64,000 bases of DNA from Flavobacterium kingsejongi. GTDB lineage: Bacteria > Bacteroidota > Bacteroidia > Flavobacteriales > Flavobacteriaceae. Shown here in pieces: positions 34,626 through 37,525 of this stretch; the stretch's first letter is position 1; each line of letters opens with the position of its first letter. Both the position numbers and the translations under genes were made by a program. The notes under the pieces were generated by a model. The model did not search any database. It was not told the origin of the DNA and worked only from the letters and a program-made list of their open reading frames with translations. Where the stretch lies: the NCBI RefSeq assembly GCF_003076475.1, contig NZ_CP020919.1, positions 3,410,001 to 3,474,000 on the forward strand, read 5' to 3'.

Positions 34626-34666
34626 AAGGATAAAGTATTAAATGATTAGATTGGGTTTGATGTCAT

Positions 34667-34702
34667 AAAAAAAGCCCCTCCAGATGTATAATGAAGGGGC
34701 TT
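34667..34702 (-). terminator. Intrinsic terminator B of the attenuator region
   Basis: On the minus strand an 8-bp GC-rich stem (AAGCCCCT/AGGGGCTT, arms at 34695-34702 and 34672-34679) is followed at once by seven Us (34667-34673). It begins 22 nt after the stop of leader B and ends 42 nt before the EamA ATG, where it can only attenuate that gene. Confidence 0.85.
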
Positions 34703-34723
34703 GGTAGATAGTGAAAAATACAA

Positions 34724-34804
34724 CTATAAAAAGCTCCTGCAACACGAAGGCATAACCATAGGGCAGCAATTCATTTTCGTTAGGGGAAGCATAATAGTAA
34801 TCAT
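34724..34804 (-). CDS. Leader peptide B, Cys/Met-rich, 26 residues
   Basis: Reads MITIMLPLTKMNCCPMVMP then SCCRSFL and TAG. It contains four Cys in two adjacent pairs and five Met in 26 codons. It starts about 30 nt after terminator A and stops 22 nt before terminator B. The same spacing is seen for leader A, the pattern of transcription attenuation where a ribosome on the leader decides hairpin formation. TACAATTG just before the ATG is one base off a -7 element, so a second start is possible. Confidence 0.6.
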   Translation of the reverse strand: MITIMLPLTKMNCCPMVMPSCCRSFL

Positions 34805-34827
34805 ATCAATTGTAAATTATAGGGAAT

Positions 34828-34862
34828 AAAAAAAGCCTTTCATAGTGGTATGAAAGGCTTTT
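34828..34862 (-). terminator. Intrinsic terminator A of the attenuator region
   Basis: A 14-bp stem (arms at 34849-34862 and 34831-34844, AAAAGCCTTTCATA and its complement) with a 4-nt loop, followed on the minus strand by seven Us (34828-34834). It begins 20 nt after the stop of leader A. Confidence 0.85.
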
Positions 34863-34881
34863 ATATAAGGGTGTATATACT

Positions 34882-34974
34882 TTATTTTCTGTAGGCCATA
34901 TCATACAATAGATTCGTCGTGCAACACATCATGTTACAGAAAAATGGAATCATATTTTGGCTTTGTTTTGTCAT
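34882..34974 (-). CDS. Leader peptide A, Cys/Met-rich, 30 residues
   Basis: Reads MTKQSQNMIPFFCNMMCC then TTNLLYDMAYRK and TAA, with three Cys and five Met clustered in the middle. A second in-frame ATG at 34953 would give 23 residues. The first ATG lies 7 nt after the -7 element of a good promoter, so the message is almost leaderless. A terminator starts 20 nt after the stop. The Cys-Cys and Met cluster recurs in leader B although the peptides are otherwise different, which argues that the codons rather than the peptide matter. Confidence 0.6.
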   Translation of the reverse strand: MTKQSQNMIPFFCNMMCCTTNLLYDMAYRK

Positions 34975-34981
34975 TTCGCTG

Positions 34982-35016
34982 CAAATGTAGGATTATGTTT
35001 TGGAATAATTCTCAAA
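34982..35016 (-). promoter_or_regulatory. Promoter of the leader-EamA-permease operon
   Basis: On the minus strand TTTG (complement of 35013-35016), a 23-bp spacer and TACATTTG (complement of 34982-34989) match the Bacteroidota consensus fully. Predicted transcription start is around 34975-34978, immediately before leader A. Confidence 0.65.
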
Positions 35017-35049: not shown

Positions 35050-36465
35050 TTATACAATAATCGTTTTGGGCTCAAGGTATTCTTCCAGCCCAAAAACACC
35101 ATATTCCCTACCCAGTCCGGACTGTTTGAATCCTCCAAAGGGCGCCATTGGATCATGGTTCAGGCAGTTTACCAATACCCTTCCGGCAACAAGCTGTCCT
35201 GCGACGCGATGTGCGCGTTCTGAATTTTCAGAACTCACATAAGCTTGTAATCCGTAATCGGTATCATTGGCGATCGTTATAGCTTCTGCTTCGGTCTTAT
35301 ACGTAATGATACAAAGTACCGGACCAAAAATTTCCTCTCGTGCAATACGCATGGTATTGGTCACATTTACAAAAGCTGTGGGTTTTACAAAATTCCCTGC
35401 TTCGAGTCCTTCAGGATGCCCGGTACCTCCAATCAGTACTTCGGCACCTTCATCAATTCCCAGCTGTATGTATTCCTGCACCCGCTCGTATTGCCGAACA
35501 GTGGCTAAGGGGCCTACACTGACGCCTTCCCGTGAAGGGGGCCCCGTTTGTACTGCTGCTATCGCTTTTTTAACCAATTCCTTTACCGTTTCCAATTGTG
35601 CTTCGGGAACCAACAGGCGGCTTCCAGCAATGCACGCCTGCCCACTATTTATAAAACAGGCCGCTACTGCCATGGGTATTGCCTTGGTAAGATCGGCATC
35701 GTCCAGGAGGATATTGGGTGATTTTCCGCCCAATTCCAGCGTAACCCGTTTTAGGGTATCTACAGCACCACGGGCAATGGCTTTTCCTACTGCAGTCGAT
35801 CCGGTAAACGAAATTTTAGCAATATCAGGATGCCGGGTAAGTTCTGCTCCAACAACGTCTCCCCTACCATTTATAATCGAAAATACCCCTGCTGGCAATC
35901 CCGCTTCATGCAGGCATTCGATGACAATTTGGGTCTGCAGGGCGCTCAGTTCACTAGGTTTGATTACTGCCGTACAGCCCGCAGCAATAGCGGTAGCAAG
36001 TTTGTTGCAGATAAATGCAGCATTGGCATTCCAGGGCGTAATAATTCCTACTACACCTAAAGGTTCCATGATGACCTGTGAAGTGCCAACGGTACGTGAA
36101 AAATCAAAATCTTCCAGTACTTTTTTATAATTCAGAAAACTTTCCGCTGCCATAAGGTTAGATCCATATGCCCTGTCACGCGGTGCCCCATATTCGAGCA
36201 TGGTGGCTTCTGTCAGGTCGCCTACCCTTTTCAGTACTGCGTCATGCAGGCGTTGCAGGTAGTCCATCCGTTCTGGAACCGTGGTTTTGGAAAATGTTGT
36301 AAAAGCGGCTTTCGCAGCTGCAATAGCTTCCCGGGTATCGGTAACATCCCCCAGGATTACCTGCCCGATAAGCGTTTGGTCACTGGGATTGATCAGGTCA
36401 AATTTTTCCTGTCCGTGGGGCTTTTGAAAAGCACCATTGCTGTAAATATGGTCAATACGTTTCAT
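35050..36465 (-). CDS. NAD(P)-dependent aldehyde dehydrogenase
   Basis: Oxidises an aldehyde to the acid. The 471-residue enzyme has the family cofactor block ITPWNANAAFICNKLATA, the general-base Glu in LELGGKSPNI and the nucleophile Cys in NSGQACIAGSR. MAPFGGFKQSGLGREYG closes the C-terminal end. The substrate is not evident; the family member most similar in length is the broad-range ALDH class. It lies 91 bp downstream of oxyR on the same strand and could be read from it as part of an oxidative or aldehyde stress response. Confidence 0.94.
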   Translation of the reverse strand: MKRIDHIYSNGAFQKPHGQEKFDLINPSDQTLIGQVILGDVTDTREAIAAAKAAFTTFSKTTVPERMDYLQRLHDAVLKRVGDLTEATMLEYGAPRDRAYGSNLMAAESFLNYKKVLEDFDFSRTVGTSQVIMEPLGVVGIITPWNANAAFICNKLATAIAAGCTAVIKPSELSALQTQIVIECLHEAGLPAGVFSIINGRGDVVGAELTRHPDIAKISFTGSTAVGKAIARGAVDTLKRVTLELGGKSPNILLDDADLTKAIPMAVAACFINSGQACIAGSRLLVPEAQLETVKELVKKAIAAVQTGPPSREGVSVGPLATVRQYERVQEYIQLGIDEGAEVLIGGTGHPEGLEAGNFVKPTAFVNVTNTMRIAREEIFGPVLCIITYKTEAEAITIANDTDYGLQAYVSSENSERAHRVAGQLVAGRVLVNCLNHDPMAPFGGFKQSGLGREYGVFGLEEYLEPKTIIV

Positions 36466-36556
36466 ACGATTATTATTTGATTCAAAGTTCGGTCGTTATT
36501 TCTTTACCGACTTTGTTATAAAGCTCAATTAATTGTGTTAAAACGATCATTGTCTA

Positions 36557-37525
36557 CTAAAAACCTTTCGTGGACTTTACAAAATAGGGTGAATCATTCC
36601 ATTGGATTTTACGGTAGCTGAATTCTTTTTTCAGGGATTCGGGCAGGCAGCTCCACAGGGATTCACTCATTTTTTCCAGCAGCAGCTTACGCGAAAAACT
36701 TGCGGCGACTACCAAGCTAATTTCACGAACTGGTTTTGGGTCTGCAAAGGATTTATACAATTTATGATCCACTTCATGCGCGATTGAAAGTTCGGGTACT
36801 ATTGCAAATCCGAGATCAGCACGTACCATATTTTTAAGGGTTTCTATGGAACTGATTTCATACGTAAACTGCCCTTTTATTTTCCGGCCATCTTCTATGG
36901 CACAAATGTCCAGCAATTGGGCATTGTAGCAATACTCATTTTGCAACAGCAGTAATTCCTGTCGGTCTTCCGGAAGCAATGCATAAAATTCCTGTCCTGC
37001 CATTGGGTGTGAGGGATACAGGTAGGCTACAAAGGGTTCATTGAATACCGGGTATTCCCGAAGTCCGGTGCGTCCTGTAGGAGTTGCCATCAGCGCCACA
37101 TCGAGGACGCCTGTTTCCAAATCCTGCATCAGTTGCAGGGTGTGCGATTCTTTGATAGTAAAATGCATCTCCGGCAACGTGGCTTTTACCGCCGAAATAA
37201 ACAAAGGAATCAGGTAAGGCGATAACGTACTGATTACCCCCAAACGGACTTCTCCCTGTAATGTATCTTTAGAATGAATAATAAAATCCCGGATCTCATC
37301 GGCTTCCCGCAGTATCTTCTTTGCTTTTTCAATAATTTCCATACCCAGTGCCGTAGGCTTTAAAGGGACTTTACTCCGATCAAAGAGCTGGATTCCAATT
37401 TCCTCTTCCAGGTTTTTCAGCTGTATGGTCAAGCCCGGCTGAGAAACATTGCATACATCTGCGGCTCTTGCAAAGTGACGGTATTCCTCCAATGCAATAA
37501 TGTATTTCAGTTGCTGTAAGGTCAT
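36557..37525 (-). CDS. oxyR: OxyR-type LysR regulator
   Basis: A 322-residue LysR regulator with an N-terminal winged helix (ALEEYRHFARAADVCNVSQP) and an effector domain. Two cysteines fall at residues 199 and 208 (EYCYNAQLLDIC), the same numbers and spacing as the peroxide-sensing Cys199-Cys208 pair of Escherichia coli OxyR. Peroxide should form the disulfide and activate target promoters. It is divergent from an osmC peroxidase gene 179 bp away, a plausible target. Residues after 300 (KEFSYRKIQWND) are a short family-specific tail. Confidence 0.92.
   Translation of the reverse strand: MTLQQLKYIIALEEYRHFARAADVCNVSQPGLTIQLKNLEEEIGIQLFDRSKVPLKPTALGMEIIEKAKKILREADEIRDFIIHSKDTLQGEVRLGVISTLSPYLIPLFISAVKATLPEMHFTIKESHTLQLMQDLETGVLDVALMATPTGRTGLREYPVFNEPFVAYLYPSHPMAGQEFYALLPEDRQELLLLQNEYCYNAQLLDICAIEDGRKIKGQFTYEISSIETLKNMVRADLGFAIVPELSIAHEVDHKLYKSFADPKPVREISLVVAASFSRKLLLEKMSESLWSCLPESLKKEFSYRKIQWNDSPYFVKSTKGF

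Follow-up and report, generated by a model that had tools for sequence, protein, structure and literature searches.

What is the role of two short reading frames rich in cysteine and methionine codons, each followed by a hairpin, that precede a pair of transporter genes? The question is raised by a 64-kb stretch of DNA (the window, by which the whole stretch that was analysed is meant) from a source genome of 4.22 Mb on a single contig. An earlier note on this DNA had interpreted the arrangement as tandem leader-peptide attenuation, and this interpretation is supported by conserved frames, coding-type substitutions, control codons and gene context. We consider it probable, at about 0.86, that an uptake operon for methionine or another sulfur amino acid is controlled by two ribosome-mediated attenuators in series, which would sense how far tRNA-Cys and/or tRNA-Met are charged.

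Layout of the leader region

The described elements are all present in the window (Table 1). Their order, from the promoter-like box through leader A, terminator A, leader B and terminator B to the EamA and APC genes, is as had been noted; the strand, which had been left unstated, is the minus strand for every one of them. The distance from stop codon to hairpin is 20 nt for leader A and 21 nt for leader B. For the APC permease, the top NCBIfam model is BcaP (588.1 bits, under the cut-off of 690). No NCBIfam cut-off is reached by the EamA protein, for which the closest named models describe exporters. Genes for an aldehyde dehydrogenase and an OxyR-like LysR regulator, also on the minus strand, occupy 35050-37525 immediately upstream.

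Table 1. Leader elements and transporter genes, with their positions in the window
Feature	Position	Strand	Basis or remark
Promoter-like TTTG (35016-35013), N23, TACATTTG (34989-34982)	34982..35016	minus	Bacteroidota-type by consensus
Leader A, 30 codons, MTKQSQNMIPFFCNMMCCTTNLLYDMAYRK	34882..34974	minus	Possibly nearly leaderless
Control codons of leader A, Met-Met-Cys-Cys	34921..34932	minus	Conservation of the first Cys in Flavobacterium-type A units
Antiterminator strand A, GUAUGA-uau-GGC, within codons L-Y-D-M-A	34895..34906	minus	Pairs with 34858-34848
Intrinsic terminator A, 14 pairs and U-run	34831..34862	minus	5' arm 34858-34848 common to the antiterminator
Leader B, 26 codons, MITIMLPLTKMNCCPMVMPSCCRSFL	34724..34804	minus	ORF reading
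Proposed control codons of leader B, M-N-C-C-P-M-V-M	34751..34774	minus	Deduced
Antiterminator strand B, core AGG-AGCUU (34738-34731)	34731..34745	minus	Folds; spans most of the terminal Cys-Cys codons
Intrinsic terminator B, then U-run	about 34672..34702	minus	Fold
EamA/DMT-family transporter, 334 aa	33621..34625	minus	PF00892, 118.8 bits (cut-off 28.2)
APC-family amino acid permease, 482 aa	32150..33598	minus	PF13520, 187.1 bits

Occurrence and coding character of the leaders

EamA orthologues have a patchy distribution. With this genome included, they occur in four of 150 genomes of the genus (E <= 1e-60), two of the four matches being only 41-42% identical, and in 16 of 296 genomes of the order and 10 of 395 of the phylum (E <= 1e-70). 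An alignment-based EamA search of named genomes yielded 92 relatives; the analysis was continued with the best 80 (L034-L113). Counted below are the upstream regions of 82 loci, namely 79 of these best 80 together with L003, L021 and the window. L112 was left out because its contig begins at the gene (the upstream region is missing for L020 as well), and L006-L020 were read and left out of the counts because several of them are the same genomes as counted loci.

A Cys/Met-rich leader ORF followed by a hairpin is visible in 80 of the 82 EamA upstream regions; L106 and L107 have none. An automatic finder detected leader and hairpin in 79 of them, L104 being missed though the unit is visible there. 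Run on 410 dinucleotide shuffles, the same finder gave no match; on 1519 other windows from these loci it gave nine, of which one is the EamA leader of L035, two are leaders of met operons and six look like chance. As counted by the finder, 66 regions have a single unit and 13 a tandem one, and a second unit seen by eye makes L109 the fourteenth tandem region. Nine of the ten Flavobacterium-type loci are tandem and L034 is single; in this count L036 and the near-identical L035, a MAG of the Flavobacteriaceae, stand as separate loci. Other tandem loci are L075, L101, L105 and L110. The more distant EamA homologues at L004, L005 and L022-L025 have no such leader, which shows, together with the closer homologues at L106 and L107, that these leaders are not universal among EamA homologues.

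Two loci deserve separate mention. In Taibaiella chishuiensis (L075), inspection by eye apparently shows three Cys-rich leaders in series before EamA-APC, in the stretch from about 510 to 130 nt upstream of EamA; the hairpin of the third is weaker. A genome recorded as that of Glaciecola amylolytica, a member of the Gammaproteobacteria (L088, CP034120.1), carries EamA-metN with a Cys/Met leader and a Bacteroidota-like promoter; either this is a case of transfer or the genome is mislabelled.

The short frames are kept in relatives, and their Cys/Met codons are constant while other positions vary, a comparison that the earlier note had proposed. Substitutions look coding rather than neutral: for the 38 distinct leaders of 32 codons in the Chryseobacterium class, a length shared by 43 of its 60 loci, pN/pS is 0.56 in frame versus 1.19 and 0.94 in the other two frames. 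Met18, Cys23 and Met24 are kept in all 38 of these leaders and Met19 in 37, and the order C-M-P-x-H is completed by Pro25 in 37 and His27 in 35. Codon 31, which lies inside the antiterminator, specifies Cys in 28 and Arg in 10. We read this pattern as conservation of the codon at the control position and of RNA pairing at the 3' end. Among 19 distinct EamA leaders of the Flavobacterium type, 27% of the codons specify Cys or Met, compared with 10% and 4% in the other frames, and there are 7.2 such codons per leader versus 1.2 in shuffles; this enrichment is inflated because these leaders were preselected for at least three Cys/Met, and the pN/pS comparison is less biased. The first Cys control codon of leader A is TGT or TGC in all nine Flavobacterium-type A units. 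Beyond the Cys/Met cluster there is little resemblance among the peptides, whether clades or leaders A and B are compared. A leader ORF with clustered control codons, which is one defining feature of an attenuator, thus appears to be present.

The promoter has to be judged with more caution. A sigma-70 scan of the window found nine promoters where 8.2 were expected, without excess; the model used does not cover Bacteroidota promoters, and a promoter match alone is not evidence. Among the 13 tandem EamA loci given by the finder, a TAnnTTTG (-7) box ends 7-10 nt before the ATG of leader A in 11, the exceptions being L101, where the distance is 22 nt, and L105, which has no box. At single-leader loci with a C-M-P/S/H motif, mostly from Chryseobacterium, the box lies at 20-28 nt in 60 of 62 cases. 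If transcription starts several bases after this box, as is the case in Bacteroidota, the first leader would have almost no 5' UTR. Leader A may therefore be nearly leaderless.

An inverted repeat resembling TCTAC-N7-GTAGA is found near the promoter at 10 of 25 loci checked (L021, L049, L088, L089, L096, L103, L105, L106, L107 and L113), and at none of the nine Flavobacterium-type loci among them. It is likely an operator for a transcription factor, and possibly a sulfur-related one. A division into single units with this operator and tandem units without it was considered and dropped, as L105 has both.

Predicted terminators and antiterminators and the position of the ribosome

Between the leaders and the structural genes, intrinsic terminators are predicted, as expected for attenuators. 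The hairpin stretches fold with -16.9 kcal/mol (A) and -17.3 kcal/mol (B), and for each of them none of 200 shuffles was as stable. The U-runs that follow lie near 34824-34831 and 34664-34671, respectively. The hairpin scan, which was limited to loops of 3-8 nt, lists terminator A only, because the 9-nt loop of terminator B exceeds this limit.

As to the antiterminator, it had been suggested that CCCCU of leader B pairs with the AGGGG 3' arm of its terminator. The folds favour pairing with the 5' arm instead: AGG-AGCUU of leader B pairs with AAGCCCCU, and the CCCCU/AGGGG candidate is thereby not supported. Leader A has an analogous antiterminator, absent from the earlier note, in which GUAUGA-uau-GGC pairs with GCC-uu-UCAUAC of the 5' arm of terminator A. 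When the RNA is folded without the 3' arm of the terminator, the antiterminator is both the MFE and the centroid structure, with -8.8 kcal/mol for A and -10.4 kcal/mol for B; folds as stable as these arise in 16 and 7 of 200 shuffles, respectively. The duplexes of the window have p = 0.045 (A) and 0.139 (B), with 200 shuffles each. In several relatives the per-unit duplex p is not significant, and there is no signal in L003 B, L039 and L097.

A swap test was performed on 39 units drawn from the EamA and met leaders, with energies adjusted by row and column. Cognate combinations of leader and terminator were 3.07 kcal/mol better than the row/column expectation, and none of 20,000 permutations was as good as the cognate pairing. 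The own partner was favoured in 34 of the 39 units (the five others are L003 B, L039 A and B, and L097 A and B), and only 4 of the 39 terminators ranked their own leader first among all partners, with related leaders competing. The adjusted swap energies of the window are -2.8 for unit A and only -1.0 for unit B.

The nine Flavobacterium-type A units allow a closer inspection, with MAFFT alignments of the leader regions read by eye and pairs counted from an ungapped, anchored extraction in which L099 receives two mismatches, avoidable by shifting a bulge. In these units, 83 of 90 antiterminator cells are paired. Shuffling the partners among loci gives a mean of 75.3 cells, and 19 of 5000 exchanges reach 83; sliding the partner by one or two positions leaves 21-34 of 72-81 cells paired. 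Changes on both sides are seen at only 2 of the 10 antiterminator pairs, in related species that are not independent. The three outer positions of the 5' arm (8-10) pair with the leader in eight of nine loci each and, in the ungapped frame, with the 3' arm of the terminator in 7, 2 and 5 of nine. On these counts, conservation of the outer 5' arm fits the antiterminator better than the terminator. Over the family, then, the leaders are predicted to form an antiterminator that excludes the terminator; for unit B on its own the prediction is weak.

The spacing of these elements seems to suit a ribosome. In 69 of 92 units, 10-20 nt lie between the last Cys/Met codon and the start of the antiterminator; among the other 23, the gap is shorter in 19 and four have no such codon before the strand. 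The strand also starts no more than 30 nt from the stop codon in 81 of the 92. The ribosome covers 12-15 nt downstream of its P site, according to the available part of one article (PMC3641672). A gap of 10-20 nt is about this coverage: a stalled ribosome would leave the strand free, while a ribosome at the stop codon would cover it and the terminator could fold. In leader B, 12 nt separate the end of the last Met codon from the antiterminator core at 34738. The terminal Cys-Cys codons of this leader fall within the strand, so that control should be exerted by the preceding codons M-N-C-C-P-M-V-M. The placement of the control codons is thus consistent with attenuation.

On this basis, the following course of events can be proposed. 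Transcription would start a few bases before leader A, so that a ribosome would load at once. With enough Cys and Met, this ribosome would reach the stop codon and cover the antiterminator strand, terminator A would fold and transcription would stop. Under shortage, the Met/Cys codons would bring it to a stall; the antiterminator strand, 10-20 nt further on, would stay free and pair with the 5' arm of terminator A, so that RNA polymerase would continue. Leader B would repeat this decision with an unrelated sequence. As only transcripts that pass both gates would reach EamA-APC, read-through would multiply and basal leakage would fall. The product of the operon would serve the uptake of methionine or another sulfur amino acid. 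The exporter models that are nearest to EamA fit expression under starvation less well.

Signal, alternative explanations and known systems

A gene for a MetN homologue is found downstream of EamA, in the same orientation, at 66 of the 80 named loci. All three subunits were searched for at one locus, L041, where MetI and MetQ exceed the NCBIfam cut-offs and MetN falls somewhat short. The other 14 loci lack metN; EamA-APC as in the window is found at eight loci (Flavobacterium-type and Taibaiella), and L034, L037 and L099 have neither metN nor APC. At L036 the adjoining divergent gene is metY (634.9 bits, cut-off 495.1), and the metY-type operons of L036 and L099 have two Cys/Met leaders each, with their own terminators. 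Elsewhere in the genome of the window (L114:4750-5210, within G000:C1:1809000-1820000), the tandem leaders MKITICNMCRTMWNLSAGDSFA and MTAGTTICMNMICRIMMCCYRCCHCQMK, again with terminators, precede a metH-type operon consisting of OsmC, homoserine dehydrogenase-like and metH-like genes; a metK-like gene that carries a SAM-II riboswitch diverges from this operon. At L114, metH, metK, homoserine dehydrogenase and OsmC were named by reading protein starts, and so was metY at L099. With the same kind of tandem leaders on metH- and metY-type operons, the former view that the double unit is tied to this transporter pair alone is not supported.

The signal can be narrowed to sulfur amino acids because of the metN genes in 66 of 80 loci and the tandem leaders on met biosynthesis operons. 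Both leaders of the window carry Cys and Met codons, which argues for one shared signal. Shortage of sulfur amino acids is likely the most economical signal, be it Cys, Met or both, and the control amino acid would then match the regulated genes, as judged from gene context. A SAM, cobalamin or other known riboswitch or a T-box in the leader region was also considered and rejected, as Rfam at gathering score has no match in the whole 64-kb window. Rfam has no matches at L030, L036, L099, L041 and L101 either; the SAM-II match at L028 is on the other strand, towards the divergent metK-like gene.

Sequence patterns were used to look for further units in the genome of the window. The pattern ATGATGTGYTGY occurs at eight places, three of them in leaders, versus none for the reversed pattern, and ATGTGYTGY occurs at 145 places versus 77 reversed. 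At 97 of these 145 places (95 loci) no further MCC-containing leader unit was found among leaders of up to 60 aa; three of the remaining places were already in the leader set, and the other 45 include leader A itself. Around G000:C1:2572526 on the minus strand (L030/L115), a possible 72-codon leader with MMCCCGVLKNCC and a terminator can be read before a gene for a putative SusC/TonB-type receptor, which is perhaps a third target of the same control.

A wider reading is somewhat better than an even guess. In Bacteroidota, a methionine regulon would be run by serial ribosome-mediated attenuators of one to three Cys/Met units, the first almost leaderless, so that a ribosome would load at the very start of transcription; they would act on uptake genes and on the biosynthetic operon, beside or instead of SAM-II riboswitches, and give a multiplicative, sharpened response to a single signal, the charging state of sulfur amino acids.

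Other explanations of the same elements have to be weighed. With the RNA switch unchanged, the leaders could encode arrest peptides, the nascent Cys/Met chain (in Chryseobacterium also His) binding a metal, an oxidant or a drug and thereby stalling the ribosome. Cys, Met and His are metal ligands, the C-M-P-x-H order is conserved in the 38 distinct 32-codon leaders, and, two genes upstream, this genome encodes the OxyR-like LysR protein (205.6 bits; cut-off 329). What makes such peptides improbable is that they would have to vary widely outside the Cys/Met cluster, across clades and between A and B, while the Cys/Met codons persist, the gap to the antiterminator is kept in the 69 of 92 units mentioned, and the recurrent neighbours are methionine genes. 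Nor do these neighbours suit the idea that the leaders sense a general slowing of translation or a ribosome-targeting antibiotic, with EamA as an efflux pump. EamA proteins do include exporters, the best NCBIfam match of this one is the YedA exporter model (185.1 bits versus a cut-off of 270), and leader-plus-terminator control of drug resistance is known. General slowing, however, needs no Cys/Met codons, and precisely these are the conserved part; metN follows EamA in most loci, and met biosynthesis operons have the same kind of tandem leaders. We regard this second idea as very unlikely.

Finally, the hairpins might be ordinary terminators and the short frames chance or a by-product, without any regulation. 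AT-rich DNA does produce short ORFs and hairpins by chance, the leader half-kilobase is overlapped by 16 ORFs of 20 aa or more, and the promoter scan did not exceed its shuffles. This explanation deserves hardly any credence: it appears largely contradicted by the finder controls, in which leader and hairpin were detected in 79 of 82 regions and in none of the 410 shuffles, by the swap test and by the coding-type substitution pattern. Of all these readings, tandem leader-peptide attenuation has the best support.

Ribosome-mediated attenuation is an old mechanism, with the trp operon of E. coli as the classical example. As far as can be judged from sequence, the system in the window has the features that define an attenuator. 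In common with trp-type attenuators, it has a leader ORF with control codons, a terminator, an antiterminator that shares the 5' arm of the terminator, and control codons just upstream of the antiterminator strand. Unlike the classical attenuators, it combines Met and Cys codons, has two or three units in series, belongs to Bacteroidota and possibly has a nearly leaderless first ORF.

In the literature searched, which was mostly open-access, no description was found of Cys/Met leaders in Bacteroidota or of tandem leader attenuators for the same signal. A survey of attenuation across bacteria by Lopatovskaya et al. 2010 is said to exist and may overlap with this. In F. psychrophilum, amino-acid operons show strong clues of leader-peptide attenuation, a general remark only in the available part of the article (PMC9723704), and sORFs reminiscent of leader peptides are mentioned for B. 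thetaiotaomicron in the accessible text of another (PMC7366714). The available parts of two further articles contain nothing on sulfur leaders of Bacteroidota (PMC2965389, PMC4833913). Orthologous genes with one, two or three apparent copies of one decision would form a natural series, by which it could be tested how serial attenuators set gain, leakage and noise. The system would also point to a sulfur amino-acid role of an EamA-type transporter frequent in Chryseobacterium, besides being a candidate case of an attenuator that starts on a nearly leaderless message.

The comparisons that follow refer to the accessible portions of the articles cited. In Salmonella mgtCBR, two short ORFs (mgtM and mgtP) likewise act as attenuators in one leader RNA; mgtM senses ATP and mgtP proline, with additive effects, whereas here the same kinds of codons occur in both leaders, and the mgtCBR stem-loops are, according to the authors, unlike intrinsic terminators, of which each unit here has one (PMC3641672). 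The uORFC-8-2 upstream of cysS in Rhodobacterales resembles the present leaders in its tandem Cys codons, leader ORF, terminator and proposed ribosome-mediated attenuation, but it is a single unit, on cysS, in alphaproteobacteria, with no Met control codons mentioned in the text available (PMC8632094). The poly-Cys leaders of actinobacterial cys operons are also short ORFs with Cys runs before sulfur genes; they differ in having no conserved terminators, and Rho-dependent termination has been suggested for them (PMC1262725). The tandem riboswitches of Bacillus clausii metE bind ligands (SAM and coenzyme B12) and involve no leader peptide, but there too two serial intrinsic terminators stand before a methionine gene (PMC3641672).
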